DNA from: Castor canadensis
Taxonomy: Eukaryota > Chordata > Mammalia > Rodentia > Castoridae
Direction: 5' to 3'
Length of the DNA stretch: 64,000 bases
Assembly (NCBI RefSeq): GCF_047511655.1
Contig: NC_133401.1
Span: forward strand, 16,800,501-16,864,500
Numbering within the stretch: position 1 is the stretch's first letter; each line of letters opens with the position of its first letter. A program made the position numbers and the translations under genes. The notes beneath the pieces were generated by a model. It was given only the letters and a program-made list of their open reading frames with translations. It was not told where the DNA came from and did no database searches. Below are positions 4,206-62,514 of the stretch, piece after piece.

Positions 4206-4548
4206 TTTCTTTTGGCTGTACTGAGGTTTGAACTCAGGGCCTTACACTTGCCAGGCAAGTGCTCTAGCACTTGAGCCATACCCCCAGCCCTTTTAGCTTT
4301 AGTGATTTTTTTTCAAATAGGGTCTCAAATTTATGCCCAGGCCTTCCTGGACCAGGATCCTATTTATTCTTCTCACTTAGCTGGGATGATGGGTGCACAA
4401 CATCGTGCCTAGCTTTTATTGGTTGAAACGGGGGTGGGGGGGTGGTCTCTTGAACTTCCTCCACACCCAAGCTGGTATGAAACCTTGATCATCCTAATCT
4501 TTGCTTCCCTAGAAGCTAGGATTACAGGACTGAGCTACAGAGCCTGCC
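4206..4548 (-). repeat. ID-B1 dimeric SINE plus a second B1-like part
   Basis: ID part GTTTGAACTCAGGGCCTTAC near 4228, B1-like parts to about 4420 and again to 4548 (AGCTAGGATTACAGG). Confidence 0.7.
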
Positions 4549-12880: not shown

Positions 12881-13963
12881 TCATCCCACTTTCTGGGGAT
12901 TCGAGGCCCTCACCCCCTGCTCGTAGGTGACCCGCTGGCTGATGAGGTATTGAGCGGCTTGCGTGGCCGCGGGGCTGCCCGTGATGGTGACCCGCCGGTT
13001 CCGCGTGCCTGGCAGGAACTCGCCCTTCTTGGAGATTTGGATGCGGGCGCCTGTCAGCTCCTGGTACTCCACCAACGTCTTGCCCCCTTTGCCCAGGATG
13101 GCTCCCACCAGGTTCTCAGGCACCGCAATCTCCACCAGCTCCTTGGCACTCTCGGCCGCCAGCTTCTCCGCCGTCAGGAAGCCCCCGGCCGCCCCGGCTG
13201 CTGCAGCAGCAGCCACCAGCGGGCCGCCCCCTCCCCCGGCCCCGCCACCTGCCCCGGCCCCGAGGTAGCCATTGGCGGCGGCGGCCAATGCAAAGGACCC
13301 CAGGGCTCCAGGGGGCGGCGGGGGCGGCGGGGCGGCCCCTCCGGCTGGCCCGGCCCCTGCCTCGCCCGCGTAGGATGCCAGGAGGTTGGCGGCGGCGGCG
13401 GCGGCGGGGTTGGCACCTGCGGCCACCGCGGCCAGGACGCCAGAGGCTGCGGCCGAGTTGAGGCCCAGGCCCAGGGAGTTGGTGTTGTAGCCGTAACTGG
13501 CCAGCGTGTTGAGCGCCGTGCTGATGGCCAGCAGATCGGTGCCCGAGAAGGCAGGCAGGGCTGCGGGAAAGGCGCCCACGCCCGCCAGCCCGGCGGGGCC
13601 CAGCAGGCCCGAGGCGGCGGCTGCCGAGGCGGCGGCGGCGGCGGGCAGCACGTCAGCTGGGCTGGCATACGGCGAGCCGGTGGGGTTGGAGTTGGCCACG
13701 GGACCAGCCACGTTGGCGTAGCTGATGTTGAGACAGCTGCTGCTCTGGGGGTCTTCCTGTACCTTCTGCACGATGGCACTCACGGCCTTGTGCACCTGCT
13801 CGGGCTCGCCGCTGACCGTCACCACGCGCTCCTGCAGGTTGATGCCCTCCGGCTTCTGCGACAGCTGCACCCACGCGCCCGATTGCTCCATCACGGCTTT
13901 CACCGTCGCGCCACCCTTGCCGATGATCAGGCCTGCCGTGCTGTTGGGGACGATCAACTTGGC
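12881..13963 (-). CDS. NOVA2: NOVA2 coding exon 4 (KH2, Ala/Pro/Gly linker, KH3, stop)
   Basis: Acceptor TTGCCATGCAG|GCCAAG at 13964/13963 follows a strong CT-rich tract. The exon encodes residues 133-492 and ends in TGA at 12883-12881. KH2 starts [18 protein letters not shown]. The linker (about 200-400) has alanine runs, a seven-proline run and Gly/Ala repeats, and KH3 carries [20 protein letters not shown]. The C-terminus is SNPQKVG. High GC makes the opposite strand open for long stretches; those frames are shadows. All of KH2 and KH3 in one exon matches the known NOVA gene layout. Confidence 0.97.
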
Positions 13964-16900
13964 CTGCATGGCAAGGAGAGAGACAGAGAGAGAGGCAGGG
14001 TTTGCATGTCTCAAGCCATTCCCGGTTCTTTCCAACCACCCTCCCCCACCAACGGTCAAGGTTAGGCCCAGCAGGTCCTCTTGATATGCACCAGGGTGCT
14101 CTCACTGGTTGCTAATATTTCCACAATGGTTGGTGAGTTGGTCTTCAGGCTCCCTGGGCAGTCCCTCAGCCACCCTGTTCTACATCTCTGGGACCCCAAT
14201 ACCTCCTCTGTACCTGGCACTTAAAAGGTTTAAGGGTTGGCTCAAGGGTTGGCTCAGTGGGGGTTTGCACAGCTCCTGCTCCTAGCTGATACTTCTGCTG
14301 TTAAGTACTCTTTCTACCCCCAGTCCCCAAGGCTTCAAGTGTCACTTAGCAGAGGAACCACTTGAGGCCTAAGAGGTGAAGGGACTTGTCCCAAGGTCAC
14401 CCAGATAGTGAAGGAGCTGATGTCCAGCCTCTTGGCTCCTGGATTCACTGTGCTCTCCATTGTATGACACGGTCTCTAAGATCAATATCACTGTTGTTCT
14501 CATGGGTTGAATTGTATCCCCTTCTTTCTTTTCTTTCTCCCTTTCTCTCTCTTTTTTGGCAGTACTGGTGTTTGAACTCAGGGCCTCCCAAATAAGCCAT
14601 GCCTCCTTGTCTATCTCTTGGCAATACGGGGGATTGAACTCAGGGCCTCACACTCTCTAGGCAGGTGCTCTACCATTTGTCCTACTTCATCAGCTCTGCT
14701 TTTGTGTTGGGTATTTCCAAGATAGGGGCTCTCAAACTACTTGCCTGGGCTGGCTTGGAACCTTGATCCTCCTGATCTCTGCCTCCTGAGTGGCTAGAAT
14801 TACACGCATGAGCCCCAGAGCCCAACTGGATCTCTCTCTTTTGCCCAGGCTGGCGTTGGACCAAGATCCCACTATCCCTGTCTCTTGAGTAGCTGGGATT
14901 ACAGCTGGGAACCATCATGCCTAGCTCTCCTGCTCTTCCTCCTCCTCCTTCTTCTCTCTCTTTTTTTTTTTTGATAGGGTCTTACCATGTATGTACCTCA
15001 GCCTGGCCTCCAACTCCTGATCTTTCTGTCTCAGCCTCCTGAACAGCTCCCCCTCAAATTCTTATGTCAAAATTCTTGCCCCTGGTACCTCAGAATATGA
15101 CTGTGTTTGGAAACAGAGTTTTTAAAGAGGTGATTAAGTTAAAAATGAGACTGTAAGGGTGGACCCTTATCCACTGTGATCGGTGTCCTAAGAAGACTAG
15201 CACATATACACACAGAGGAGAGACTGTGTGAAGACACAGGGGAAAAGAAGAGCATCCACACACCAGAGAAGCCTCAAGAAGCCAACCCTGTTCACACCAT
15301 GACCTTGGCAAGAAAGTAAATTTTTGTTATTTAAACCATCCAGGCTGTGGTACTAACTAGAACACTACTCAGTTGTCTTATCTGATTTCTTACTTTTTTT
15401 TTTTTGGCAGCCCTGGGGTTTGAACTCAGAGCCTCATACTTGCTAGGCACCTTACCACTTAAGAATCACTCTACCAGACCTTTGTTGGTACTGAGTGTTA
15501 TTGAGATAGGGACTCATGAACTATTTTCCTAGGCTGGCTTAGAACTGAGACCTCTCCTTCGTGAGTAGCTAGGATTATAGGTGTGAGCCACCAGCACCCA
15601 GCTGAGGTGCTTGCTTAGCAAGCTCAAAGCCCTGAATTCAAACTCTAGTATTGCTCCTTTCCCCTGCCCCCAATAAAAAGGCCATGAGTTAGAAGAGGAA
15701 AACCTCTCATTTAAAGATAGTGGTTTCCTAGTCTGGCGCCTAGAGGGGCCAGCTTGGGGAAATAGTTCACAAGACCCATCTCCAAAATAAGCAGAGGAAA
15801 ATGGACTGGAGGTATGGCTCAAGTGTAGAGTGCCTGCTTTGCAAGTGCAAAGCTTGACCACAAGAACAAACAAAAGATAGTTGTTCCCTTTTCAGCTGAA
15901 GAGCAGCCCATCCTTCAGCCAACTGTCTGTCCAAACAGCTGCATATCTGGGGGATCTTAATTTTGGGGGACTATTTTAAGACCAAAATCCCTTTTCACAT
16001 CTCCAAGGGCATTTCTTGGGCCTCACATATGCTAGCCAAGTGCTCTACCACTGAGCTACATCCCCAGCTCTCTCCAACACGTATAACTGTATACATATAA
16101 ATATATACATATAAATTCCACCTTCTAAAAATCCTTCCTACATCTTCTTAGACCTGTGGATTCTCCACTTATAAGCCAGAGGGTGGCAGGGATTTGTGAG
16201 TTTGTAGGGGGACTGGGGTGGGGGAGAGGGCAGATGCAGACATTCAGTAGGAAAGCCTATGGTGTCTTTGCCCCACAATGGAAAGTCATTTCCTCACAAG
16301 GAGGAACTATCCCAGGTTTTGTATCACTACTTTTTTTTTTTGAGACTACGTCTTGCTATGTGGCCCAGGCTGGCCTTGAACTTAAGATCCTCCTGCCTCA
16401 GCCTCCTGAGTAGCACAGCCATGCTCAGTATGTATGACTGCTTTTTTCTTTGACAGAATTGGGGTTTGAACTCAGGACCGTGCACTTGCTAAGGCGGTGC
16501 TATACCACTCGAGCCACTCCACCAGCCCTTTTTGCTCTGGTTATTTTAGAGATAGGGTCTTGCTTTTTGTCCAGCTCTGCCTGGACAGCAATCCTCCTAT
16601 TTATGTTTCCCACTGTTAGCTGTGATGGCAGACATGTGCTACCACATCCAACTTTCTTGTTGTTGTTGAGATGGGGTCTCACAAACTTTTTTGCCCAGGC
16701 TGGCTTGAACTCATGGTCCTCCTGTACCAGCCTCTGAGTGCTGGGATTACAGGTGTGGGCCACCATGCCTGGCTCAAGTTTTTTTTTTTCTCACTATTTA
16801 AAGAGTTACAGAATTTCCAGGAATTCAACTACCTTCCAGAAAATGTCCAAATCCTAGTTTGCTATTTTTTTGGGGGTGGTACTAGGGTTTTGAACTGAGG

Positions 16901-19900
16901 GCCTTGCACTTGCTAGGCAGGTGCTTGACCACTTGAGCCACACCCCAGACTATTCAGTACCTGTGTGACCTTAAGAAAATGCTTTCACCTTTCTGTGCCT
17001 CAGTTTCCTCTGGTCCATCATTAGCAAAGTCACACTTGGCCTGTAAAATTATTGGGAAGATTGCAGTGACTATAAAGTGACTGCTGATGTCTGGCACATG
17101 GGAAGACTGAACTTTGTTTTGTTCTGAACTTTGCCAGCAGTGGCTCATCATTTTAAAAACCTTGACACGAGCCGGGCAGTGGTGGGTCAGTGCCACTCAG
17201 GAGGTGGAGTGACTCAGGAGGCAGAGATCAGGAGGATCGTGGTTTGAAGTCAACCTGGGCAAACAGTTCATGAGACCTTATCTCGGAAAAACACATCACT
17301 AAAAAAAGGGCTGGTGAAGTGACTCAAGGTGTAGGCTCTGAGTTCAAACCCCAGCATTGCAAACTAAACAAAAAAACCTTGACACAAACAGGAATGCCAC
17401 TTGTATCATTCAGATCTCCAATACCACATTCGGCTTGCTTGGCATTTGCAGCTGTGTCACTCAGCTGTGTTTAGGTGGGACCAATGACTATGTTGTTATT
17501 CTTTTTTGAGGGGGGAGTTGAACTCAGGGCCTCCTGCTTGCCAGGTGAGTATTCTACTACTTGAGTCACACTCTCAGCCTTCCCCCCAACCCCTGTTTTT
17601 TTTTTTTTGTTTGTTTGTTTTTTAGTTTATTTTTCAGATAGGGTTTTGGGCTTTTGCCTGGGGCCAGTCTCAGAGTGAGATCCTCCCATCTCCATCTCCC
17701 ATGTTGCTGGGATTACAGTTGTGCTTCACCATGCCTGACTTATTTCATTAGTTCTTCTACTGTGGTCCCAGCTGAGTATTTACATATTAAAATTAATCTT
17801 ATTTTGTAACTAATCATTTTATTTCTCCTGCATTTTTAAACATTTTATGGAGGCAAAAATCCCTCCCAAGGCAATGTGGTTTGAGGCCAGCTCAGGCAAA
17901 TTTTTTTTTTTGTGGCACTAGGGTTTGAATTCAGAGCCTTACGCTTGCTAGGAAGGCACTCCTACCACTTGAGCTACTCTGTCAGCCCAAGACAAAAAGT
18001 TTGAGAGACCCCATCTGAACCAATGGTTGGGAGTGGTGGCACCCACCTGTCATCCTAGCTAGTAAGGCAGCACAAATAGGAGTATCAAGATCCAGGCCAG
18101 GCAGGCAGTGAGACACTATCTCAAAAAACAAAAACAAAAACAAAAAATAAAAACAAAAGCAAAAAGGGTTGGTGGAGTGACTCAAGTGGTAGAGCGCCTA
18201 CCCAGCAAGTGTTGAAGTTCTGGGTTTAATCCCCACTACCGCCAAAAACAAAATTAAAACAAAACAAACAAAACCTAAAAAAGTCTCATGGGATAAATCA
18301 AATGTGCAGTGTATCCATTCAATGAAGTATTAGTTGAGGTTAAGTTTAAATAAACAAAGTAGTGATGCAGCTCATGCTACAACATGCTACAACATGGATG
18401 AACCTAGGAAACATCATGCTAAGTGAAGGAAACCACGTATGATTCCCTTTACATGAATATCTACAGTATGCAAATCCACAGAGAAAAACCATAGATTAAT
18501 GGTTGCCAGGGGAGGAGAGAAAGGGTTTGGGGGTGACTGCCAACTGGAATGGGGTTACTTTTGGGGAATGTTCTGGAATTAGATGGTGGTGATGGTTGAC
18601 CATATCTATTGTGATTCCATTAATATGAATGTCCAGAATAGGCAAATCTATAGACACAGAAAGTGATTAGTGGTGACTTAGTGATGAAGAGGGAGTTAGC
18701 TGGGGCAGGGGAGAGGTTTTGAGGGGTGGGAGTTAAGAGGATCAAGATTTCTTTTGGAGGTCAGCCATGGTAGTGCTCTCCTATAATTCCAGCTACTAAG
18801 GAGGTGGAGGTAGGAGGATCACAGTTTGGGCCCAGCCTGGGCAAAGCTAATTCCAGACCATCCCTGAGAAATAAATTAAAAGCAAAAGGACTGGGAGTAT
18901 GGCTCAAGCTGTAGAGTGAAAGGCCCTGAGTTTAATCCGTAGGTACCAAAACCAAACACAAACACAAACACAAAACAAAACAACTTCTTTTGGAAGCCAG
19001 GCATGGTCCCAGCACTTGGGAGGCTGAGGCAGGGGGACTGAGGCAGGGGGACTGAGGCAGGGGGACTGAGGCAGGGGGACTGAGGCTACATACTGAGATC
19101 CTGGCTCAAAAAACATCTTTTGGAAGTGATGGAAATGTCCTAAAATTAACTGTGGTAATGACTGAGCAATTCTGCAACTATAACAAAAGCCACTGAGCTG
19201 TACATTTTAAATTGATGAATTGATACCTCAATGAAACTGAAAATATTTTACGGGTGTGTAACCATTCTGTTCTGTATATTTCAAAAAGCTAGAAGAAAGG
19301 ACTTTGAATGTTTTGAACATTTTTCACCCGATTCAAATACAACACAGTTACATATGTCATATACAAGACATGACATGGCACCCCAATGACAGGCACAATT
19401 TTTTTTCAGTACTGGGGTTTGAACTCAGGGCCTACACTTTCAGACACTCCACCAGCCCTTTTTTCCTGATGGGTATTTTCAAGATAGGGTCTCTCGAACT
19501 ATTTGCCCAGGCTGGCTTTGAACCTTGATTCTCCTGATCTCTGACTCCTGCATAGCTACGATTACAAGTGTGAGTCACCAGCATCTGACACAATTTTTGT
19601 TTTTAAGACAAGTTAAAAGTCAATTTAATTTAAAAAAAAATCTTGTGAGTTTAGACCTGTTTTATGTGTATGGCTTAGGAAGTCCCTTTACTTTTCAGAG
19701 ATACTTTTTCCACACCTGTAAAATGGGCATATCATTTATGATCCATTCTGTTTTGCAAGCTTTCAGTGAGACCCGGGCGTCCTGCTACAAGGCAGCCACT
19801 CAGTTCACTGTGGCAGCAGGGCTCCTGCTGTCTCAGCAGAGCAAGCTCCAAATCCTACTTTGCTATTTATTTGACAAATGCTTCCAACTATGTGCCTCAA

Positions 19901-22900
19901 TTTCCTCATGTCCATTAATAACACAACCAACCACACTTGCCCTGTATAAATTTCTTTTTTGGGGCCAGTACTGGGATTTGAACTCAGGGCCTCATGTTTA
20001 CTAAGCAGGTGCTTTACTGCTTGAGCCACACCCTCAGCCTTGCCTTTGTAATTATTTGGAAGATTTCAGTGGCTATGAAGTGACTGCCTAGTGGCTGGCA
20101 CAAGGGAAGCCCTAAGAAAATGACAGGTGTCTTCACGATAGACCCTGAATTGTAGCACCATAGCATCTTAGACCTGCAGGTGCAGACTCACAGAATCCTG
20201 GAATCCCAGAATTTTAAGAACAATAAAAATCTCAGAATAACAATGACAATATTCTTGGAATCTTGGAACTACAGGGCCACAGAGTTATAGGCATTTTAGC
20301 TGGGTGTGGTATTCACGCTTGTAATTCTAGCTACTTGGGAAGCAGAGATCAGGAAGATCATGGTTTGAGAGTAGCTTGGGCAAAAAGTCGTTGAGACTCC
20401 ACCTCAACAAAAAAGCTGAGTATGGTGGCACACACTTGTCATCCCAGCTACATAGGAGGCAGAAAAGTACCTTATCTGAAAAATAATTAAAGCGAAAACC
20501 ACTTGTGGCTCAAGTGGTTGGGTACCTGCCTAAGCCCTCAGTTCAAACCCCAGTACTACCAAACAAAACAAAACAACGACAACAAAGAGGCAGGAGGAAC
20601 TCACAGACTACCTGCCCAGTGACTTGCAACATCACAACTACTCCAGCATCAGCAGCTAACAGGGCTTATTGCTTGCCAGGAACTTTTCCAAAAAGTTTAT
20701 TATGGTGATTCACTTAGTCATCACAACAAACCTCTAAGCTAGGCACTATTATTCTCACCACATTTTCTAAACTGGGAAATGGAGACACAGAGAGGTGAAG
20801 TAATTGTGCAAAGTGATACAGGCAACGGAAAGAAGAGTCAGGATTGATTCCAGGCCAGACTCTATGCTCAGATGCCCAAGCCTTATCCCTAGAAATTCTG
20901 ATTTAGTTGCTCTGGGCTGGGGCCCAGGAATATGAATGTTAAGGTACCCAGGTGACTCAGATTCCAGCCAGAGCTGAGAACTACTGGTTCAGCCCAGAGG
21001 TAGTAAATTGATGGCCCTCAGGCCATAGCCAGCCTACAGCCATCTTTTCTTTAATTTTCATAGTGGTTCTTTTGGTGACACTGGGATTTGAGCTCAGGTC
21101 CTCACACTTGCCACACAGGCACTCTACACTTGAACAACTCCACCAGCCCTTTTTTGTGGTGAGGTTTTCGAGATAGGGTCTCTTGAACTATTTGCCTAAG
21201 CTGGCTTCAAACCGTGATCCTCCTGATCTCTGCCTCCTGAGTGGTTAGGATTACAGGTGTGAGCCACTGGCACCCAGCTCAAACCAGTCTTTTAAATCAG
21301 TTGATTTATAAAAAGATTTCTGATTTCTTTGGAAAAGCCTGGAAGATATGGAAACAGTTTGCCATGTTCCCAAAGGGTAAGAAGTGGGTGGGTCTGAGTT
21401 GTTGCGGCCCACTTCAGAGGGCCACAGGCTAACTATGTCCCCTTTCTGAAGCTTGGGGAGCATTCCAATTTATAATCCCTGTTTTGACCCTGCTGCTACA
21501 CTGTAAGGAAAAAGAAACTGAAGCCTGAGAAAGGAAGGGGACCCTGCATACCACAGCAAGTGCAAGTCAGAAAAGGAATAGCCCTGTTTCCTGATTTACA
21601 AATCCCATAATAACAACAGCTAACACTCCAGCCTCAGACCTCAATCTTCCTATTTTTCACCTCCTCTGTAGCTGGAATGGCAGGCATACACCACCACTCC
21701 TGGATTATGTGTTGAGATGGAGTCTCATTAACTTTTTGTCAGAGCTGGCCTCGAATCTCTGCCTCCTGAGTGGCTGGGATTACAGGCATTCACCACTGCG
21801 CCTGGTTATGATAAATATTTTTCAAACATCAATGAACGTCAAATACTGTCCTTAAGTAGGCACCATAGATCAAGTCTCTTCTTCAAAGACATGGGTGGGA
21901 AGTGAGAATAGAGTAGGATTCAATTCAACACCTGTGTCCAGAGCCTGAGCCTTTAGCAGTGACCTCCACCATTCTTTGAAGCCCTCAAATAATAAGGCAG
22001 AGGATCAATCCTGGTTCTGTAACCTTTCGACTCCGCTGTGGCACAGTTCCAGTGGATTAGGGGAAGGCAGGTGGAAGGCTCAGGCACAGATGGTTCTGAC
22101 TCCACTTTCCCTGCAACATCCACAAACTCTGGATGAACCCTGAATCCCTTGTGGCCACAACCAAGGCGGAGGCAATGACCTAGTTAGTAAACTGTGCCCT
22201 GCTCCTGAGCCGGGATTCAGGAGGGGCCTTGGCGGGCTGAGGGAGCCGAGCCGCTTCAGCACCAAGGACAGCGGCCTCACTCCTCGCCTAGAGCCCGCAG
22301 CCTTTTTTGGGGAGGGAGATCCACCCGGCTCTCCGCGCACCTTGTTCCCACAGGCTTGGAGGAACTCAAGTTCAAGGTCTGCCCCACCTCAAGGCAACGC
22401 CAGCACCTAAGAATCTCAGATTCTTTGTACCGAGGCCCTCTCTCTGCACTTGCTTCCAGGTAGACATTCACGAACCCGCACCCAGCGACCTCCCTTGCCA
22501 GCGCCGGGCTTCTGTCCACCTTGGCATCCGAGGCGCACATACCCCGGAGTGCGGAGTTCCGAGAAGACGGGGTTCGAGCGCCGTCGTTTCCGCGCTCCCT
22601 TTCCCCCTCACTCCTACAGTCAGGACCGCGAAACCAGGGATGTTGCCTAGAGCCCACCTGTCCCGCGCGCCGTCGTCATGGCAATCGGAGAGGCCTGGGG
22701 AAACGATTGGTCCTCCCCCGCCACGCCCCTACTCCACCGCTTCCGGGTAACTAAGGCAACCGAGAGGCGCTACCTTCCCTCTTCCATCCCTTCCTAGAGA
22801 GGGTTGAGTAGGATTGGGACCTGCCCCCTCTCTCACTGATGAAACGTCATCTCTACCCCCATAACGGTAATTAGGGGGAAGGAGGACAAGAGAGCACTTC

Positions 22901-25900
22901 GAAACATTTTGAGGTCACTTCCGGTGAGGACAGGAAGTGGGAGGCAAGTTGTTCAGAAAGACAATGGGATGAGGTGGAAGGGAGAGGAGGATATGGAGAA
23001 TCTCAGGAAGGGTGGATGAGTGGGAGAGTCTGGGCCCAGACAGTCCCTCTGATTCAAGCCCACTCCAGGGGTTCTGGAGTCCTTTCTAGACTATTAGGGC
23101 TGACTTCCTAATAATAAAATTAACCACCAGCAGGTATTAGATGAACTTTTTGCCTCCTTGAATCCCCATGCAGGCATCTGGGAGACCTCACCAACAGCAA
23201 CACACTCTCTGGCCCAGCTGACCTGCTTGGCTCTGTCGGGGTTCATCGTGGTTTGGGGTTGAAGGATGTTGACCACCTCAGGCTTGGTCATCGCTTGAGG
23301 GATTTCTCGGACCTTCTCGGCAATAAAGCTGTGCACAGCATTCAAGGCCTCTGCTGTGCCCTGTACTAGGCATACCCGCTCTGTGGTTCCTGTTGAGCAA
23401 GGGAGAGAGAGGGCACACTCATCAGACAGGAATGGGGGCAGTCCTGAGAGATAGGCCCCATTTAATGGAAGGGGACAACTGAGGTCCAGGGAGGGGACCT
23501 GGCTGATTCTTGGCCACACAGCGAGTCTAGGTAAATTGCTATGGGTTCCCAGGCCATGATGGGTAACTGGGGGAATGAATGAATGGAATCTCTGTTTTAT
23601 AATCTGCACTAATCTCCCTCCCCTAAAACAACCCGGGAACAGAAGAATGATGCTTAAGTGTTCTGCGATGCCCACAGCAGCCCTGGGTAAGGGAGACAGG
23701 GCTCAGCTGCCTCTTCTCAGTTCTTATGGGTTCCCCCCCGGTTGTCTTGGCAACCATTCACTCACCACCCTCCTTCTTCTAGAGGCTGAGCTGCTCAGGC
23801 CTGAAATGGTTGCCACAGTAACTGGAGTCCCCTTATCGGTCTGGCTGGCCTGGTCCTTAGCCCACCCCCAGGGGGATGAGGGACGAGGCTTGGTTACCAT
23901 GGCAACCCCTGAAAGCCTGCAGCGCTGGCCTCTGGGCTTTTGGAGAGGATGGGGAAGGGTTGGGGGATGGGGAAGGCAGAAGGGAGTCCAAGTGCCTGCC
24001 TGGACCCACCAGATGGAGGGCTGAGAGGTGGGGGAGGGCAGGGTGTGGACAGGGGAGATCAGGAAGGGTCAAAGGCAACTCTTGGAGGCTGGGAGCATCC
24101 TCCTCACTTCTGCATGTGTGCCTTGGAATTGGGGCACAGGGGAGAATGAAGCCCAGTGGGGTTGGGATATATGTGTGTGGGACAGAAGCCCTGTGTGACA
24201 CTGTAACCCACGTGTGTGCTTGTGAGGCTGCCTGGTATGTGTGTGTGTACTTGGCCAGGACTGGCTAGATTACTTTAATCTGTGTTTGTGTATAAAAGAG
24301 CAGGATAGATTGCAAAAGAAACATCTAAGTGACACAGTGGTTTCCGGTAATGAGATTTTGGGGCACCCTGTGTGTGGGGAAGATGCTAGTGTCACTGTGA
24401 TGATTGGGCTTATGAAGGCTATTTGTCAGCCTGAGCTGAGTGTGTGTGAGTTTGAAAGAAACAAAAGAGTCTCACGAAGCAGCAAAGAGGCTGAAGGATG
24501 ACTCTGTACTATTCACTAGTGGTGTGTGTCTGTGTATGTGTAAGCAAATGAAAGAGATGTCACACATCTCTGAGTAGTCACAGGCCATTTGGGTGAATGG
24601 TATGAAGTATGTATGTATAGGAGACAGACACAATTGGCGTGTGTGACACAGGAAAGAGACAGACTCAGGGGTCAGTGTGCAAGAATGTTTGGATGGAGGT
24701 GCATGTGTGACTTTGAGACAAAGACAACTCTACTGTGAATGACTTGAGTGTGTTCAGTGTGGGACGTGTGTCTCTCTCCTTGGAAGGGACTTTGTCTGCA
24801 GGACCCAGTCAGCTACCTGAATCTGCAAAAGGACTTGAATGTGTGCCAGGCTCCATGCCTGTGTGTCTGGGTCACTTGGTGGTAAGTGTCATTGTCCTGC
24901 AAGCATTTAAGGGCACTGTGCTGGTGCTACCATGCTGACCCCTCTCTCATGTCAGCCTTCATTTGTCTGGGTGTCACTGTCTGTGGCTCACTTGAGTAGC
25001 TGACAGCCCCCACCCCCTTTGGGGCACTATCCTCACTTTTACCACCCCCCCACCTCTGAACAATGGCTTGGTCTGAGCCAAGGGTGAGTCAGCTGCGCAG
25101 GCTGCCTCTGTCTGGGTGTAAATAGGAAAGGGTGTGGGTCGGGGAGGAGTTTGGGGGGAGGGGGAAGCCCCAGGGAGAGCCTGGCTGAAGTGACTGGGTT
25201 CCCCATCTCTGCAGGGACCCAGGAAATCTTTGATTGTTCACCTCCTTGTAGTTCCTAACCTGGGGCTCACAGGAGCTCTGCAAGGGGACCCAGTTAAACC
25301 CTGAAAAGTATCCCATAATAACAGCTGGTGATTATGTAAGACTCAGCACCATGCACCATTCTGAGCCCTTGGTAAGTATCTGTTCACTTAACATGTGAGG
25401 CGGGTACTCTTGGTCTCGCTGATTTTCTGCTCACAGAGGCACAGAAGGTTCTGGCTTTGTTCTAGTTCACTCAGTCAGTAGAGGATAATCAGGGTTTTGA
25501 GCCCAGTTCTCTGATTTTAGTCTGTACACTTTTTTTTTTTTTTTGCAGTACTAGGGTTTGAACTCAGGGCCTTGCACGTGCAAGGCAGGCCCCCAACCCT
25601 TTTTTGCTTTCGTTCATTTTCTGGGTAGAGTTTTGCTTCTACTTCAGGTTGGTCTCAGACCTCAGGGTCTTGATAACTTTTTGTGGGAGCAGTTCTTGGA
25701 CCTTGATCCTCCTGATTTCCCTGCTTCCTGGGTAGCTAAGATTACAGGCCTGAGCCACTACACCTAGCTAGAAGAGTCTGTGCTTTTAGTTCTTATACTG
25801 CTCTGGGCTAAATTTGGGGTCCATGGAGTGATTATCTCTATGTGTGTGTTGGGGGGCATATACGACTACAGGGGTTATTTTGTGCTGGAGGATCTGAACT

Positions 25901-28900
25901 CAGGGCTTCAAGCTAGCTAGGCAGGTGCTCTACCACTTGAGCCAAGACCCCAGTCCTTCCCTTTTAGTTTGTTTTTACTGTCTTTTTCAGTACTGGGGTT
26001 TGAACTCGGCCTTGTGCTTGCAAAGCAGGTGCTCTACCACGCGAGCCACACCTCCAGCCCATAGTTTGCTTTTCAGACAGGTCTTAAACTTTTGTCTGGA
26101 CCTCAGATCATCCTTCCTCCGCCTCCCAATTAGCTGGGATTACAGGCAAGCACCACCATGCCTGGCTACTCACTGTTTTTTTATGCCTCAGTCACACTGA
26201 CTAACAAACTGCTTCTTTCTGGAGAGCACTCCCTTGCCCCTTTCCTAGACTCTTCTCACTTATAGGTCAGGTTTCTGGAGGCAGCCATTCCTGACCACCC
26301 TGGGCTGGGACCACATGTCCTGTCTGGGTTCCCACCATCCTTTGACTTCCCTGATCCAGCCCTGGCCATTGATGTGGGTTCTATCTCCCTGACCAGGCTG
26401 TGAGATTCAAGAAAACAAGCCTGAGACACTCTAGTTACTGCTGTGTCCTCATCTCTGTCCAGCCCAGGGCTGGCACAGAGGAGGCATTCAGAGAGTATTG
26501 ATTGAATGAATGAAAGTAGGAGGAACATGCTCTTGTCTCATGCATGGGCACCTGTGTCCAGGGTTCCCGTGAGTCCCACAAACCTGCAGGAAGTAAGGAG
26601 CTGTGATCTGTGTCTTTGAGCCAGGAGTCGACACCTGCTGTATGATCTGGAAGTTCCATTCAGGAACTGGGGCTGGGAAGAGACACTGGCTCACGTGCCT
26701 GTCTGAACACTGTCTGGTCTAGGAGAACCCAAAACTGTCCTATCTTCTGGATTTGCAAACAGCCTGGCCTGTGGGGTGTGTCATTGGGCTGAGAGGGATG
26801 ACATATCTCATGGCACAGAATGTGATCCAGAGGCAAGAAACCAAGTGTCCTCAGATGAATGTCCCAAGCAGAGGTCTCATCCACATTTTCTGGGCTGGAG
26901 GGGTGCAGGGAAAACAGGGCCAGGGCGGGAGAGAAAAGGAGGCGGTGTGCGTGGGTCACTGGATTTTTCTCTAAACTCTTTGCCAAAGCTGCTTAGTGAG
27001 ATGGGAGGTGGGGAGAGAAGGGAATGAGGGAGAGAGGGAGGGGGAGAAGGAGGGATGGAAGGAGGGAAGGCGGGAGGGAGGGAAAGAGAGAGGGAGGGAA
27101 GAAAGGAAGGAGGGAGGGCAGGGGAGAGAGAGAGAGGGAGAGAGAGAAAAAGAGAGAGAGAGAGGGAGGGGGAGAGAGAGAGAGAGAGAGTACTGCCCCT
27201 GCACTCTATCTGTGGTGTTTGACCTAAAAAATTTCAAGAGGATTAAGAATGAACCAGAAGCAGCTTGGGACTAAAGACACTATCACAGGGTCATCCCTGG
27301 ATTCCTAGATGTTGAGCCTCAGCCATTGGTCTTGGGAAGGAGTTATGGAGGGGTGAGAGAGATCCAGGGGGCTTAGAGAGAGTAGAGGAGCTTTAAAAAT
27401 GAATGGTTGGGGGGAGAGAAGGAGCCTGGGGAGAAGCAGAGAAGGGGCTGGGTTTGGAGGGTGTTAAAAAAAAAAAAAAGGCCAGGATAGAGTGGAGACT
27501 TAGGAGAAAGAGAGGAGCATGAAGGGAGGGCCTTCATGCAAATGAGGGGCAAGGCTGGCAGAACATGACCACACTGAGAGCTGCTGCTCAGTCTGAGTGG
27601 ATGACTGAACAGAGTTTATAGAGGGAGAGAAAGAAAAAGGTGAGATTCTGACGGGTGGGAAAAAATGAAAAGAGCAGGCGATAGGAGAATAGGGAAAGGA
27701 GGGACAGAGGAAGGGAGGGCACACAGAAGCACAGACAGGATGAGGATATCCAGGCAGAACCTGAGAGGTAGCAGCAGAAAGAGGGCAGGAAGAAGCAGAG
27801 AGAAGTGGAGGGGAATAGAGACTACAGAAACAGAAGGGGGAAGAGATACATTAAGAATGACCCAAAAGCCAGGCATGCTGGTACATCCCTGTAATCCCAG
27901 CTACTCAGGAGGCAGAGGTAAGAGTATCTAGAGTTTGAGGTCAGTCCAGGCAAGGTTAGTGAGACCCTATCTCAAAACGAAACACAAACAAAAGGGCTGG
28001 GGAAGTGGCTCAAGTGGCACAGCAGTTAAACAAGAGGCTCTGGATTCCATCCCCAGTACTGCAAAAACCCAAAAAACCAACAAAAAAGAATGACCCAGAG
28101 ACAGAGCAAACCATCATGAGACAGGGCAAGATGAGGTGACAGAATCCAAATGGAAAGAGTTGGGGGGGATATGTGTAACATGGCTGGCTGGCTCCCAAGC
28201 CCCGAGGGACACCCTGACACCTGCCTCCCCACTGTGGCTTCTCCAACTGACCAGAGAGGGCAGGTGTGTGGGAAGGGACACATCTGCCAGCACCATGCAA
28301 ATGATCCATGAATATGCAGCAGGCCCATTGTCTGGCCCTGCCCCCACCCCCATCTGCTCAGGCCAGGCCCCTTGGGCTGGGGCAACTCTGTCTCCTTAGG
28401 GGGAGGGGAGGCCCCCCACTACTCTCAGTGCCTCTAAGGGCAGCCCCTTCCTCCTCATCCGAGACCCGGATGCAAGGAAAGGAAGGAGGGAAGGAGGAGG
28501 GAAGCTCACCAGGGTAGAAGTCTTTGGACTTGGACAGCTTGATCGTGGCTCCCGTCTCTTTCTGCAGTTGCACTATGGTCTGGCCACCTTTTCCGATGAT
28601 GGAGCCCGCCGCGTAGCTGGGTATGAGCACCTTCAGAAAGTATTCGCCTTCCTCTGCAGGCACACAGGACGAAGGGATGTCAGTGAAGGGGGAGGACCTC
28701 CAGGGAGGCTCCAGCATGGTGCGGGCAGAGAAAAACATAATGACCCGCCAGAGCAATGACCACAAAAATAGCAGTGAGCAAGACAGTACAAAGAAAATAC
28801 AAATTCACTCATTCATTCACTCAACAAACAGCAACTGAACACCTGCTATGCTCTTGGCACCCGTCAAAACAATAAAACCCCCCCGGATCTTGTGGGCAAG

Positions 28901-31900: not shown

Positions 31901-34900
31901 CTCCAGCTTCCCCTCTTTTTTTTCATTTTCTATTTTTTGGCAGTATTGCACTCAGCACCTTGCGCTTGCGAGGCAGGTGCTTCTGCCACTTGAGCCACTC
32001 TGCCAGCTCTTTTGTTTTCAGATAGTGTCTTGATAATTTTGCCCAGGTAGGCCAAAATGATCCTGATCTCTGTCTCCTGAGTAGCTGGGATTATAGATGT
32101 GAGGTACCTCAACTGGCCCCAGCTTTCCTATTGAGGGGAGAAGATATTTATCTTCTCTGAAAACTGGGGACACCCTTGCCCCATCCTCTGCCTCCTCTCC
32201 TGTATTCCCTCAAGCTTTAGCTGAAAGTTTCTCTAGGAATGCCCCAACCAACCCTGATGAAGTGTGAATTTTGTTACCAATGGGTTATATGGCATGGGGA
32301 AAGTGGTCTCACCTCTTTGGGCCTCAGTAAAATGGGAGACACAGTAACACAAACCTTTTAGCGTTGTTATGAAATGTAGGATGCTCCAGGGCACACAGAA
32401 TACTTGAAAAACGGCAGCTATCATCATCATCATCATTAATTACATTATTACAATTTTGAGACAGGGTCTCACTATGTACCCCAGGCTGGTCTTGAACTTG
32501 AGATCCTCCTGCCTCAGCCTCCAAGTGCTGGCATTACAGGACTGTACCACCATACCTGGTGGGCTTGGGGCTTTTGTTGAGAGGTAGGAGAAAAAGAGGG
32601 AGACACCACTTCATCACCACTCACCCCCTAAGGTGTTGTCCCAAGCTGTTCCTTGCTACTTGAAGGAGGAACGTCCTCTCACTGATACAGGGGAAATCCT
32701 GTCTCCTGCCCAGGTATCTCTTTATCATCCTTCTTTCCCCTGCTGCCTTCTTGGACTTTGCTCTTCTGTCCTCTTTCTTTCTCCTCTCCCTCTTCCTTTC
32801 CTCACTGTGAGTCCTCCTGCCAGTCCTTCCTTTCAATTCCTTTTAAGCTATAAATACATCTATTTATTTTTAGGCAGTACTGGGATTTGAACTCAGGACC
32901 TCACGCTTTCCAGGCAGGTGCTTGACCACTTAAGCCACTCTGCCAGCTCTAAATTTATCTATTTAGAAAGGAAGTTTTAAAAAACATTGCTAATAACTGG
33001 AGTTTGAAATGCTGGTTATGTTTTCTCTCCCTAAAATACATGAACATAAACTTACAATGGCCAAGAAGAAATAAATGTTTTGTTCATGGACTACCTCAAC
33101 ACACCTGACTAGTGGCAGTATGTCTTTTGGAGTTTCCTCCTCACCGGAGGCTACTGTGGAGAGTGATAGGCTGAGACCTTCTGCCTGTAGAAACCCAGAA
33201 CTCTTAGGACAGCTCAGTGGCTTGCAACTGTTAATTCCAGCTACTTGGGAGGCAGAGACCAGGAGGGTCACAATTTGAGACCAGTCAGGCAAAAAGTTAG
33301 CAAGACCCCCATCTCAAAGAACAAGGCAGGCACCTTATTCTTTGTTGTTGGTGGTCACCTGTCAACCCAGCTACAAAAGAGGTATAGTAGGAGAACTGAG
33401 GTACAAATCCAACAAACACTTGACATCCTATCTGAAAATAACTAAAGCAAAAAGGGCTGGGAGTGTGGCTCAAGTGGTAGAATGCCTGCTAGCAAGTGTG
33501 AGGTCCTGAGTTCAAACCCCAGTACTGCCAAAAATAAATAAAAATAAATTAAAAAAAAAAACAGAAGAAAGATTAAAAAAGAAACTCAGAACTATTAGGT
33601 CCCAGGAATCTCCATGTGTGGACATCAGTGGAGTGTCCATTGTGGACTGCTTCTGGTCCTTTCCAGAATCTTCCTCACATCCTTCCTGTTTGAGGCGTTT
33701 CCCACCTCCCCCAGAGAGAAGCCAGGGCTCTATTTCTTAGCCTTCCTCCAAGGGCAGAGACTTGACCTCAGCTGAACTCAGAACCCCAAGGCATGACCTG
33801 CTCTCACAGGGCTTGAACAACCAACTTTGAACTTTTTCATCCAGTAGAAAGTTTTTTCTACCAAGGCTGGATCTAGATGCCAGAGCTCACACCACCCACT
33901 CCCAGCTTTTTCCAAGGGGTCTGGGCAGCTCTTGCCACCCAATGACAGTGACTGACAAATGGAAGGTGAAATGAACCTGTCTCTTCAGGGATGCAACTTC
34001 AAACATTTCCACTTTGGGAAGTCACTGAGTCCCCGGCCTCCACCCACCTCCCTCAGGATGCTTTAAAAAAAAAATCAACCAGTATTCTTCCCTGTCCATA
34101 AACAATGTTTGGTTAGCTAAGAGATTGTGGGTGTAGTAAGGAGTGGCTAATTTTATTTTATCAGTGTTGATCCTGTAAGGTGGCTTGGATCTGTGGGGAT
34201 CACTAATGACAAAAGTAGAGCTGAAGAAGCGCAAGTCATAGAATGCCTTTTTTCGGGGGTGGTACTGGGGTTTGAACTCAGGGTCTTAGACTTGCTAAGC
34301 AGGTGCTCTACCACTTAAGCCACGCCCCCCAGCCCTTTTTACTTTTAGTTTGTTTTTCAGATAGACTCTCTTGCTTTTGCCCTGGTTTGCCTCCCACTGT
34401 GATTATCCTACTTTACTCTTCCGAGTAGGGTAAAGAAGGATATGAACCACCATGCCCACCCCCAAGGGGTTATTATTATTTTTTTAATGTTTTTTTAATT
34501 CATATTTCATTTATTCATACAATGCCTGGGTCATTTCTCCCCCCTTACCCCTCGCTATCCGGCAGAAACTATTTTGCCCTTATCTCTAATTTTGTTGTAG
34601 AGAGAGTATAAGCAATAATAGGAAGGACCCAGGTTTTTGCTAGTTGAGATAAGGATAGCTATATAGGGAGTTGACTCACATTAATTTCCTGTGCGTGGGT
34701 GTTACCTTCTAGGTTAATTCTTTTTGATCTAACCTTTTCTCTAGTTCCTGGTCCCCTTCTCCTATTGGCCTCAGTTGCTTTTAAGGTATCTGCTTTAGTT
34801 TCTCTGCGTTGAGGGCAACAAATGCTAGCTAGTTTTTTAGGTGTCTTACCTATCCTCACCCCTCCCTTGTGTGCTCTCGCTTTATCATGTGATCAAAGTC

Positions 34901-38324: not shown

Positions 38325-39191
38325 GTCTTAGCCTCCCACCCTCCCACACAGCTTTACACACCCACCCTTTCCTCCATGTCACCCAACACACCCACCCAGC
38401 CAGTCCTCCCGCACAATCCCGCCCATGGTCCACACATGCCTCCCTCCGGGATAACCCTTGCTCAGGACATCCCCAGGGAGGCAGGGTGGGGAAGCTCCAG
38501 GTCCACAGGCCGCCTGTACTCCTTCCCCTCCCCCCGCCGCGAGGACACGCAAGCCAGGGAACACCCCTGCCCCGAAAGGGTCACATCACACACCCCTCAA
38601 GGACACACAGACACCCGCCCGGAGGTACCCACGCCCCTCCATCCTGCGCACAGCCCCCCCACCAAGGACACTTACCACCCCCTCCCCCCCAGCCCCTCTG
38701 ATCGCAGACAAAGCTCCCAGCCCCGGGCCGCGGCGAGAGGAGGAAGGGGTCCGGCCCCCTCCCCAACTCCCCGCTCTGTCCTCCGCTTTGGGGAGGGACG
38801 CCCCTCCCCTCCCCAGGGCCCTTGCACCTGCCACGGGTGGCAGTGTGGGGGGAAGGATGGAGAGAAGCGAGGCCCCCCCCCGCCCGCTGCCCTCGCGGGG
38901 CCGCGGCCCCTTCTCACCTCCCGTGTTGCTGCGCTTGGTGCAGACCACCTCGGGGGGCGTCTCGAGGGGCCTCTTGCGGGAATCCGGGGCCTCGGGCTCC
39001 ATGGGGGGGGCCTGGGGCGGCGGCTGCTGCTGCTGCGGCGGCTGCGGCGGCGGCGGCGGCGGCTGCTGTGGCGGCGGCGATGGCTGCTGGGGAGGCTGGG
39101 GTTGCGGCGGCGGCGGCGGGGGCGGCGGCGGCTGCGGGGCCGCGGAGGCCGTGAAGAGGCCGTGCACCGCGCCGGCGGCCATCATCCTCAT
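12881..39191 (-). CDS. NOVA2: NOVA2, neuronal KH-domain splicing regulator (whole spliced coding span, four exons)
   Basis: Join on the minus strand: 39191-38918, 28653-28510, 23389-23223, 13963-12881. NOVA2 is a nuclear RNA-binding protein that recognises YCAY clusters in neuronal pre-mRNAs and controls alternative exons. The joined frame has three KH domains, each with an intact GKGG loop: KH1 about residues 32-99 (GKGG at 49-52), KH2 about 130-196 (147-150) and KH3 about 406-474 (423-426), numbered from the ATG at 39002. An N-terminal basic stretch (RKR then KR within residues 9-24) fits a nuclear localisation signal. An Ala/Gly/Pro-rich linker separates KH2 and KH3. From 39002 the frame is 492 residues, identical in length to human NOVA2; from 39191 it is 555. 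The long alanine-rich linker distinguishes it from the paralogue NOVA1. No frameshift or lost motif was seen. Introns are about 10.3, 5.1 and 9.3 kb, of phase 1, 1 and 0. Confidence 0.97.
14556..15045 (-). repeat. Cluster of ID-B1 and B1 SINEs in intron 3
   Basis: Partial ID at 14556-14600, full dimer at 14612-14825, a B1 at about 14835-14930 and another at 14968-15045, all reverse. Confidence 0.75.
15393..15875. repeat. ID-B1 dimer (minus) and two ID pieces (plus)
   Basis: Reverse dimer at 15393-15603. Forward ID fragments at about 15605-15660 (CCTGAATTCAAACTC) and 15800-15875 (GGTATGGCTCAAGTG). Confidence 0.7.
16010..16950 (-). repeat. Cluster of reverse ID and B1 SINEs
   Basis: ID at 16010-16072, B1 at 16338-16425, an ID-B1-B1 chain at 16452-16775 and an ID at 16866-16948. 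Confidence 0.75.
16955..17105 (+). repeat. MIR SINE
   Basis: CCTGTGTGACCTTAAG, then CTGTGCCTCAGTTTCCTC, the MIR core. Confidence 0.7.
17168..17372 (+). repeat. B1-ID dimeric SINE
   Basis: Forward: GCCGGGCAGTGGTGG, GGAGGCAGAGATCAGGAGG, then ID tail GAGTTCAAACCCCAGC and A-rich end. Confidence 0.8.
17500..18250. repeat. Three SINE units in alternating orientation
   Basis: Reverse dimer at 17500-17742, reverse ID at 17893-17992 and forward B1-ID at 18020-18250 with an A-rich CAAAAA linker. Confidence 0.75.
18365..19255 (+). repeat. Old L1 3' fragment split by SINEs
   Basis: L1M-type phrases ACATGGATGAACCTAGGAAA, CTAAGTGAAGG, TGTTCTGGAATTAGATGG, and after the SINEs GTACATTTTAAATTGATG at about 19200. 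Part of the element (GTCCAGAATAGGCAAATC) is present in two diverged copies. Confidence 0.7.
18764..19112 (+). repeat. B1-ID dimer and B1 with internal 14-bp tandem
   Basis: Forward dimer at 18764-18960, then B1 at 18990-19112 in which a GGGACTGAGGCAGG unit is repeated four times at about 19033-19085. Confidence 0.75.
19405..20040 (-). repeat. ID-B1 dimer and ID monomer
   Basis: Reverse dimer at 19405-19590 and reverse ID at 19955-20040; MIR-like sequence between them. Confidence 0.75.
20295..20575 (+). repeat. B1-B1-ID composite SINE
   Basis: Two forward B1-like parts followed by an ID tail GTTCAAACCCCAGTACTACC. Confidence 0.75.
20640..20990 (-). repeat. MIR SINE and flank
   Basis: Reverse MIR phrases: CTAAGCTAGGCACTATTATT, GGAAATGGAGACACAGAGAG. 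Confidence 0.65.
21065..21812 (-). repeat. ID-B1 dimer and separate B1
   Basis: Reverse dimer at 21065-21285; reverse B1 at about 21645-21812 ending GGCTGGGATTACAGGC. Confidence 0.75.
22240..22945. promoter_or_regulatory. Internal CpG island with promoter-like motifs (NOVA2 intron 3)
   Basis: I count roughly 30 CpGs in the 300 bp from 22460 to 22760. Promoter-type motifs include CTTCCGG ETS boxes near 22739 and 22918, an inverted CCAAT (GATTGGT) near 22703, an RFX-like GTAACTAAGGCAAC at 22747-22760, and CACTTCCGG plus CAGGAAGTG near 22916-22940. There is no recognisable coding sequence; open frames on both strands look like GC-rich shadows. It may be an alternative NOVA2 promoter, a non-coding RNA promoter or a REST-controlled element. 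Confidence 0.6.
22255..22275 (+). promoter_or_regulatory. RE1/NRSE element (REST binding site) in NOVA2 intron 3
   Basis: The 21-bp site reads TTCAGCACC, AA, then GGACAGCGGC. It agrees with the canonical RE1 (TTCAGCACC, NC, GGACAGCGCC) at 19 of 21 positions; the exceptions are A for C at position 11 and G for C at position 20. Both half-sites are intact at standard spacing. REST silences neuronal genes outside the nervous system, and NOVA2 is a neuronal gene. The site lies at the left edge of the internal CpG island. Confidence 0.75.
23223..23389 (-). CDS. NOVA2: NOVA2 coding exon 3 (end of KH1 and inter-KH linker)
   Basis: Acceptor CTCAACAG|GAACC at 23390/23389 and donor AAGCAG|GTCAGC at 23223/23222. 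The exon is 167 nt, entering in phase 1 and leaving in phase 0. It encodes residues 77-132, ending MNPDRAKQ: the last strand and helix of KH1 and the linker before KH2. In NOVA1 a 72-nt cassette exon lies at the matching position after this exon. No counterpart was recognised in the 9.3-kb intron that follows, but a short exon could be missed by eye. Confidence 0.96.
23740..23907. promoter_or_regulatory. Cluster of three RFX X-box palindromes (NOVA2 intron 2)
   Basis: Three X-box-like inverted repeats lie within 170 bp: GGTTGTCTTGGCAACC at 23740-23755, GGTTGCCACAGTAACT at 23808-23823 and GGTTACCATGGCAACC at 23892-23907. The first and third have both half-sites of the RFX consensus GTTGCCATGGCAAC nearly intact. 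They start about 350 bp from exon 3 in otherwise repeat-free intron. Confidence 0.65.
24100..24960 (+). repeat. TGTGTGAC-rich degenerate region in NOVA2 intron 2
   Basis: Scattered GTGTGTG, TGTGTGAC and GTGTGACAC units over about 850 bp on the plus strand, separated by unique sequence. The style resembles the intron 1 array but the strand is opposite and the units more diverged. No gene recognised. Confidence 0.55.
24961..25520. other. Intron 2 unique sequence
   Basis: No exon or recent repeat recognised; a short MIR- or L2-like fragment may occur near 25320-25510 (TAAGTATCTGTTCACTTAAC). Confidence 0.35.
25524..26172 (-). repeat. ID-B1 SINE cluster in intron 2
   Basis: Reverse dimer at 25524-25770, then reverse ID at about 25868-25960 and dimer at 25985-26172. 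Confidence 0.75.
26250..26515 (+). repeat. L2 LINE 3' portion
   Basis: GCCATTCCTGACCACCC, CCAGCCCAGGGCTGGCACAG, ending GATTGAATGAATGAA. Confidence 0.75.
26996..27191 (+). repeat. 200-bp pure purine (GGGA/GA)n tract
   Basis: Almost uninterrupted G and A on the plus strand, ending in GAGAGAGA repeats. In NOVA2 pre-mRNA it is a long CU-rich tract, a PTBP-type sequence. Confidence 0.85.
27865..28090 (+). repeat. B1-ID dimeric SINE
   Basis: GTAATCCCAGCTACTCAGG, then GGGCTGGGGAAGTGGCTCAA and A-rich tail. Confidence 0.8.
28295..28331 (+). promoter_or_regulatory. POU octamer with nearby SOX-type motif beside NOVA2 exon 2
   Basis: ATGCAAAT lies at 28295-28302 and CATTGT at 28326-28331, in intron 2 about 180-215 bp past exon 2. 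A second exact octamer is at 27536-27543. SOX-POU pairs mark neural enhancers, but here the spacing is wide, so this is suggestive only. Confidence 0.35.
28510..28653 (-). CDS. NOVA2: NOVA2 coding exon 2 (most of KH1)
   Basis: Acceptor CCTGCAG|AGGAAG at 28654/28653 and donor CCTG|GTGAGC at 28510/28509. The 144-nt exon enters and leaves in phase 1, giving TGEEGEYF across the junction with exon 1 and YPGTTERV across the junction with exon 3. It encodes residues 29-76 with the KH1 core [20 protein letters not shown]; the GKGG loop contacts RNA in KH domains. Because its length is a multiple of three, skipping it would keep the frame but destroy KH1. Confidence 0.96.
28800..29420 (-). repeat. L2 LINE fragments
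   Basis: Reverse L2: TCATTCATTCACTCAACAAA near 28808 and GTGCAAAGGCCCTGAGG near 29350. A 16-bp unit GAGGTAGGGGTTGCTC is duplicated at 29362-29393. Confidence 0.65.
29568..29950 (+). repeat. B1-B1-ID composite SINE
   Basis: Forward parts GTAATCCTAGCTACTTGGGA, GCCAGCCTGGGCAAAAAG and ID tail GAGTTTGAATCCCAG. Confidence 0.75.
30330..30535 (-). repeat. ID-B1 dimeric SINE
   Basis: GACTGAACCCAGGGCCTC and AAGTAGCTGGGATTACAG. Confidence 0.8.
30560..30890 (+). repeat. L2 LINE fragment
   Basis: Diverged L2 with CTGTCACCTCAGGACCTTTG and ATCCTACTCAAATGTTTC. Confidence 0.6.
31163..31515 (+). repeat. ID fragment and B1-ID SINE
   Basis: ID-like at 31163-31235; B1 at about 31318-31425 of the classic type (GGGCTACATAGTGAGA) followed by an ID unit to 31515. 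Confidence 0.75.
31935..32112 (-). repeat. ID-B1 dimeric SINE
   Basis: GGCAGTATTGCACTCAGC and GAGTAGCTGGGATTATAG. Confidence 0.8.
32450..32950 (-). repeat. Classic B1 and an ID monomer
   Basis: B1 at 32450-32560 (GAGACAGGGTCTCACTATGT); ID at 32868-32950 (GGGATTTGAACTCAGGACC). Confidence 0.8.
33215..33560 (+). repeat. B1-ID composite SINE
   Basis: GGCAGAGACCAGGAGGG and ID tail GAGTTCAAACCCCAGTACTG with A-rich end. Confidence 0.8.
34255..34465 (-). repeat. ID-B1 dimeric SINE
   Basis: GGTACTGGGGTTTGAACTC and B1-derived remainder. Confidence 0.8.
34470..34912 (-). mobile_element. 5'-truncated young L1 3' end
   Basis: T-rich start (poly(A) tail in reverse) and about 440 bp of AT-rich non-coding L1 3' sequence. 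Near-repeats AAGGGGTTATT and AAAGGGTTATT at the two ends look like a target-site duplication. No L1 coding frame remains. The family assignment is by impression. Confidence 0.55.
35140..35350 (-). repeat. MIR SINE
   Basis: CAGGGAGACTGAGGCTCAGA and GAAATAACTTGTCTGAGG. Confidence 0.65.
35545..35715 (+). repeat. B1-type SINE
   Basis: GCTGGGTGTTGAGGTGATGC, GTAATCCCAGCTACACAGGA and A-rich end. Confidence 0.75.
36030..36230 (+). repeat. MIR SINE
   Basis: GGGCAAGTTACTTAACCTCT and GTGCCTCAGTTTTTCATTTG. Confidence 0.8.
36610..36800 (+). repeat. MIR SINE
   Basis: ATGTGACCTTGGGCAAATGA and GAGCCTCAGTTTTGC. Confidence 0.75.
37480..38700 (-). repeat. GTGTGAC-type degenerate tandem array at the start of NOVA2 intron 1
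   Basis: The plus strand repeats GTCACACACCC-like units more than fifteen times over about 1.2 kb, with variable C-rich spacers. Pure CA runs lie at about 37585-37604, 38179-38208 and 38286-38322. In the NOVA2 pre-mRNA this reads as GGGUGUGUGAC and UG runs, starting about 200 nt after the exon 1 donor. Long His/Thr/Pro frames on the plus strand are products of the repeat. Confidence 0.8.
38918..39191 (-). CDS. NOVA2: NOVA2 coding exon 1 (with possible 63-residue N-terminal extension)
   Basis: The exon ends at 38918 with donor GGGAG|GTGAG and leaves phase 1. Residues from the ATG at 39002 read [20 protein letters not shown] and continue to SNTG, the known NOVA2 N-terminus. In frame upstream are ATGs at 39191, 39185 and 39182. 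The first has CCCACC before it (A at -3), a better Kozak context than the ATG at 39002, which follows a run of C. The added 63 residues begin [13 protein letters not shown] and are otherwise nearly all Pro and Gln, encoded by interrupted CCG/CAG-type triplets. The 39002 start gives the classical product; the 39191 start gives the longest open form. No in-frame stop separates them. Confidence 0.9.
39010..39140 (-). repeat. Interrupted CCG/CAG trinucleotide tract in NOVA2 exon 1
   Basis: The sense strand has runs of CCG and CAG triplets encoding Pro and Gln in the N-terminal extension; on the plus strand these read CGG (up to about six) and CTG (four). The longest pure runs are short and interrupted. 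Confidence 0.7.
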
Positions 39192-41662: not shown

Positions 41663-41704
41663 TGCTGCCATGGCAACCGCCCCAAACCCATCACCATAGC
41701 AACC
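41663..41704. promoter_or_regulatory. Pair of RFX X-boxes upstream of NOVA2
   Basis: TGCTGCCATGGCAACC at 41663-41678 and TCACCATAGCAACC at 41691-41704 each contain a full GCAACC half-site, and the first is a near-complete palindromic X-box. They lie about 2 kb upstream of the NOVA2 promoter. Confidence 0.6.
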
Positions 41705-48469: not shown

Positions 48470-48760
48470 TAACGTTTTGCCATTCCATCCATGTTGCCTC
48501 AAAAGACAGAACTTCATTCTTTTTAAAATTACTGAATAGAGGGCTGGGGGTGTAGCTCAATTGGTAGAGCTCTTACCTTGCAAGTGTAAAGTCCTGAGTT
48601 CAAATCCCAGTACTGGGGCGGAGTGGGGGAATGACTAAATAGTATTCCATTGCGCATGAGTATCATATTTTCGGTATCCATTCATTTGCTGATTCCGTAT
48701 CTTGACCATGGTGAACAGTGCTTCATGAACATGGGAGAACAGGTATTTCTTTGCAAGAAG
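48470..48760 (+). repeat. Old L1 fragment interrupted by an ID element
   Basis: L1 phrases TTTTGCCATTCCATCCATG and AAATAGTATTCCATTG flank a forward ID at 48545-48630 (GGGCTGGGGGTGTAGCTCAA). Confidence 0.7.
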
Positions 48761-50707: not shown

Positions 50708-50945
50708 TCGGGCTGGGATGTAGTTCAGTGGTACAGCGATTGCCTAGCATGCAAGAGGTCCTGGGTTCGATCCCAGCACCAAAAAAGAAAAGACAAAAAG
50801 AGATGGTGTCTCTTCCTCCCTCCCTCCCTCTCTCTCTTTCTTTCTCCCTTCCTTCCCTTCCTTCCTTCCTTCCTTCCTTCCTTCCTTCCTTCCTTCCTTC
50901 CTTCCTTCCTTTCTTCCTCCTTCCTTCCCTCCCTCCCTTCCCTGT
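50708..50945 (+). repeat. Canonical ID element followed by (TTCC)n
   Basis: ID at 50708-50790 with TAGCATGCAAGAGGTCCTGG, near the rodent ID consensus; (CCTT)n tract at 50815-50945. Confidence 0.85.
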
Positions 50946-57260: not shown

Positions 57261-57599
57261 AGTCGGGGGTGTCTGTTTCTAGGAGGTTCTTTAATGGGGA
57301 AATTGTAATGTAGGAGATAGCACGTGGCAGACTACCGAGGTGCTGATTTGCGACTTAATGGTAGGTTATAAGGCAGAGCATTATTATAGCGTAGAATGGA
57401 AGGGCGGAGGTCCCTGCTATGGGTTCTGAACTTGGATTTGGGTGGGGAGGCGTGTGAAGAAGCAATATTGAAGCGGGGTGTGTGTGTGGGGTGGAGCTCT
57501 CCAGGGATGACGATGTGCTAGGATGAGATGTGAAGGCATGTGCCATATATGCAGCGTTTTCTGTGTGCAGGCACCTAGCACGTGTTTTAAACGAATCCC

Positions 57600-62510: not shown

Positions 62511-62514
62511 ACTT

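Follow-up and report, generated by a model that had tools for sequence, protein, structure and literature searches.

A canonical RE1 in intron 3 of NOVA2 as a candidate element for REST control

Reported REST control of NOVA2 and of other genes

The closest described system is the REST-NOVA2-L1CAM axis, for which Mikulak 2012 is said to be the primary study. It involves the same gene and the same regulator as the present work. The citing reviews, in the text available from them, give no binding site in NOVA2, while the window, i.e. the whole 64-kb stretch of DNA analyzed here, offers a candidate.

As told in PMC7312376, the REST dependence of NOVA2 was reported from expression in PC12 clones, and there NOVA2, not NOVA1, follows REST. 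Two reviews (PMC4596026 and PMC5343790) likewise describe NOVA2 as dependent on REST, but the wording of PMC4596026 implies a REST-dependent Nova1 too, against PMC7312376. A further paper that is cited in review for a five-fold figure (PMC4639699) names Nova2 in its main text only in the reference list. That NOVA2 is under REST is not a new idea; it is already in print, and the control told in the reviews could be indirect. Among the papers on NOVA2 that were consulted we found no RE1 placed in intron 3, and one may well be listed elsewhere. What the site brings is therefore confirmation and mechanism, not surprise.

A second system is SRRM4/nSR100. According to Raj 2011, as described in PMC4596026 and PMC3424503, REST represses this splicing regulator, which like NOVA2 is neuronal. 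SRRM4 in turn affects REST splicing, and such feedback is not known for NOVA2.

At the level of the site, a close comparison is with the RE1 near mir-132/mir-212, ATCAGCACCGCGGACAGCGGCG, given in PMC1794552. It has the GCGGC right end and the full core in common with the site in NOVA2, but differs by an A at position 1 and a GC spacer. Further, it lies about 200 bp from the microRNA, whereas the RE1 in NOVA2 is deep in an intron. With canonical RE1/NRSE sites of the 2-bp gap class the NOVA2 site shares both half-sites, the gap, C9 and the 14 core positions; the difference is at position 20, where the canonical form has C and the predicted NOVA2 site has G.

The RE1 in NOVA2 intron 3

The identity of the gene was established from its spliced frame and from PDB matches. 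On the minus strand four coding exons join through GT/AG borders into an uninterrupted frame of 492 amino acids plus stop. Exon 1 (38918..39002) holds the MEPEAPDS start and exon 2 (28510..28653) the first part of a KH domain, matched by Pfam KH_1; exon 3 (23223..23389) is defined by its splice sites and the open spliced frame, and exon 4 (12881..13963) holds the stop codon. The exon-4 protein contains two Pfam KH_1 matches, and its best PDB chain is 1ec6, RNA-binding protein Nova-2 (6.5e-49), followed by chains of Nova-1, Nova-2 and Nova-1. Because of the PDB matches to Nova-2 and the uninterrupted 492-residue frame, we assign the gene to NOVA2.

Upstream of MEPEAPDS the frame stays open (39003-39185, minus strand) and contains an in-frame start, MMAAGAVHG, that would add 61 proline/glutamine-rich residues; another ATG stands two codons further up. 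NOVA1 starts with MMAA, and a longer N terminus of NOVA2 is possible.

The RE1 is the 21-mer TTCAGCACCAAGGACAGCGGC at 22255..22275 on the plus strand, antisense to NOVA2, and it was recovered by pattern searches as well as by the matrix. It lies in the 9,259-bp intron 3 (13964..23222, GT...AG), with 948 bp separating it from the exon-3 donor and 8,292 bp from exon 4; the MEPEA start codon is 16,727 bp upstream. A sequence-only reading of this DNA had placed a near-perfect RE1 here in NOVA2 intron 3. Its coordinates and letters are exact, and the intron number is right when coding exons are counted.

The left half-site TTCAGCACC (22255..22263) and the right half-site GGACAGCG (22266..22273), both on the plus strand, are exact and separated by the canonical gap of 2 bp. 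The right half-site occurs only here in the window, counting both strands. The left half-site has a second exact copy at 9902 on the minus strand, with no right half found beside it within the limits tested. According to PMC3320604 the canonical motif consists of a 9-bp and a 6-bp half-site separated by 2 bp, and the NOVA2 site has this arrangement, with a left half of the TTCAGCACC type and a right half of the GGACAG(CG) type.

Compared with TTCAGCACCACGGACAGCGCC, which PMC3529185 terms the canonical NRSE, 19 of 21 positions agree, and the same count holds for both common canonical forms; the 19/21 match, intact half-sites and standard spacing claimed earlier are thus borne out. The two departures are at position 11, in the spacer, and at position 20. 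Neither is unusual, since of the 14 published predicted sites tabulated in PMC1794552, 4 have G at position 20 and 3 have A at position 11. The core of low variability, given there as positions 2-9 and 12-17, is described as strongly constrained in known RE1 sites. The NOVA2 site follows the consensus at all 14 core positions, which holds for only 3 of the 14 sites in the table.

The account in PMC8096226 has REST fingers 3-5 reading the right half and fingers 7-8 the left half, while finger 6 contacts the base opposite C9 in canonical sites. The letters read by these fingers, including the C at position 9, are all present.

To score the site, as the sequence-only reading had proposed, a matrix was built from the 14 distinct published predicted sites in the PMC1794552 table. 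The RE1 scores 31.17 out of a possible 33.3, where the score is a yardstick and not an affinity, as the matrix is small and its sites were computed near microRNA genes, some of them being weak. The published sites themselves range from 17.7 to 31.6 when included in the matrix and from 8.6 to 30.3 when each is left out in turn. The NOVA2 site falls within the former range and exceeds 13 of the 14, even though these were scored with themselves included. The runner-up in the window reaches 13.34. Because no other place scores higher than this, the RE1 is the candidate if REST acts directly within the 64 kb.

The claim that such a match is very unlikely by chance also holds. An order-1 model predicts 4.4e-6 occurrences of the exact half-sites per 64-kb window and 0.17 per 2.5 Gb, compared with about 50 per 2.5 Gb for the 14 core positions taken by themselves. 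Simulated sequence of about 100 Mb each under order-1 and order-3 models, scanned on both strands, contained no position reaching 31.17; the best scores were 25.7 and 26.0, respectively. When up to three mismatches are allowed, the 21-mer has a single match in the window and none in any of 100 shuffles, while TTCAGCACCNNGGACAGCG has one match, itself free of mismatches, against 0.11 expected and at least one match in 10 of 100 shuffles. Still, a sequence match alone is no proof of function, because an estimate quoted in PMC1794552 puts chance matches at 41% in an earlier consensus search.

A search for pairs of half-sites (up to two mismatches per half, three in total, gaps of 0-12 bp) returned four other pairs in the window, each with three mismatches, and we take them as chance. 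Only one of them, at 62492-62516 with a gap of 8 bp, falls in the 7-9 bp range that PMC8096226 gives for non-canonical RE1s. The exact 21-mer was absent from a scan of viral sequence, which is uninformative on mammals, and a scan of prokaryotic genomes, with at least 117 stretches, yields no chance rate.

Proposed repression of NOVA2 and competing explanations

By far the most credible reading of these letters is a real RE1. We consider it quite probable that this is a genuine canonical RE1 and that REST uses it to repress NOVA2 outside neurons. Such direct repression is likely; that REST binds here, and that this site rather than another carries the effect, are what we infer.

REST silences neuronal genes in other tissues. 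Its known corepressors are CoREST with histone deacetylases and LSD1, SIN3, and methyltransferases, and the antisense orientation is no objection for a silencer. In REST-positive cells the zinc fingers of REST would bind both half-sites, and bound REST would recruit corepressors, as described for REST in PMC11701043. Transcription of NOVA2 would then be kept low from within intron 3. The bound complex would act on the CpG island around it and also, by spreading or by contact, on the promoter, which lies upstream of the start codon at 39 kb. As REST declines in neuronal differentiation, this brake on NOVA2 would be lifted.

The earlier interpretation was that the RE1, next to a CpG island, restricts NOVA2 to neurons. 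An RE1 in intron 3 near an island has good support in the sequence, and it in fact lies just inside the island edge. The restriction to neurons is plausible; it fits the REST dependence told in the reviews. If the site acts as proposed, it would be a direct and editable candidate cause of the reported dependence, and it might help to explain why NOVA2 but not NOVA1 depends on REST. NOVA2 would also join SRRM4 as a neuronal splicing regulator under REST, in this case through a cis element.

The island spans 22241..22960 (720 bp, GC 0.60, 46 CpG), and the RE1 starts 14 bp inside its edge. Since the main promoter lies more than 16 kb upstream of the RE1, REST may act first on the local island. 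A bound RE1 might then mainly silence its own island, for example an internal or antisense promoter, with effects on the main NOVA2 promoter that are small or secondary. The island has kept its CpGs, with an observed/expected ratio of 0.72 compared with 0.23 for the whole window, and it holds two CTTCCGG words of ETS type, two ATTGG words and two CGTCA words, as many as are found in 3.8%, 17.7% and 24.1% of 1000 shuffles, respectively. An X-box-like site with one mismatch (22747-22760) is also inside it, and one such site is present in 14.7% of 300 simulations. However, none of these motif counts is strong by itself, and the island contains neither a GC box nor a TATA word. A search of the island for an internal start of NOVA2 yielded no good candidate exon; the ATG frames on the gene strand do not exceed 87 amino acids. 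All in all, we regard silencing of mainly the island as unlikely.

Transposons are an established source of new RE1s (PMC4499139, citing Johnson 2006 and Mortazavi 2006), and many RE1s in mammals arose in this way, so the site could be a copy brought by such an element and have little role at NOVA2. The surrounding sequence speaks against this. When 22000-23000 is compared with the window, there is no non-self match longer than 26 bp, and the RE1 lies outside all of the short ones. Further, MIR and L2 ends align no better than to shuffled sequence, with 70-174 of 200 shuffles as good over four alignments. A transposon copy is very unlikely, although the RE1 may lie in an old repeat or one of another type. 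Finally, that the RE1 is a chance match without REST binding is the least credible explanation, and we all but discount it given the expectations and simulations above and the reported REST dependence of the host gene (PMC7312376).

X-boxes around exon 3 and other features of the window

Exon 3 has a cluster of X-boxes close by. The X-box consensus, GTNRCCNNRGYAAC, is the RFX site. Upstream of exon 3, in intron 2, there are three matches within 166 bp (23741-23906): one at 23741-23754 with one mismatch and two exact ones at 23809-23822 and 23893-23906. One of the two exact sites, GTTACCATGGCAAC, matches on both strands.

In the window there are 14 X-box places with at most one mismatch, whereas 400 simulations averaged 5.3. 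At least two exact places were seen in 5 of the 400, and neither four places within 1.2 kb nor two exact ones within 100 bp in any of them. These figures flatter the cluster, since the pattern was picked after one island site had been seen, its 2-bp gap after trying gaps of 0-3, and the distance limits were set after the cluster had been seen.

With RFX X-boxes and a REST site flanking exon 3, an intragenic regulatory hub may exist here. It is conceivable, though on balance doubtful, that exon 3 sits in a two-way switch, with the RE1 and its island to one side and the X-box cluster of intron 2 to the other, in which REST closes the hub outside neurons and RFX opens it in neurons. If true, the hub would set the level of NOVA2 or a NOVA2 or antisense transcript that starts internally. 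Two more X-boxes with one mismatch each, their starts 26 bp apart, were noted at 41664-41703, upstream of the 5' CpG islands of NOVA2.

The repeat content of the window was surveyed with SINE probes. The ID probe has 28 matches and two 7SL-type probes have 28 and 30, while the B2 probe has only three, of 23 bp each. Such a mix of SINEs fits a rodent that does not belong to the mouse group. A likeness to MIR near 22160-22240 was discarded; in 21950-22500 the best MIR alignment is at 22013-22114, and 70 of 200 shuffles do as well. Rfam reports four tRNA matches in all (4213-4285, 32872-32944, 48550-48613 and 50714-50782), probably tRNA-derived SINEs rather than tRNA genes. The last of these is inside an ID-like SINE match (50710-50791), and the one at 32872-32944 overlaps a short match of the B2 probe.

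Seven short pieces of CCDC61, tried as a neighboring gene, gave no match in the window. Another CpG island, at 56741-57400, contains four GC boxes and four CCAAT words and might be the promoter of the gene that adjoins NOVA2 on its upstream side.
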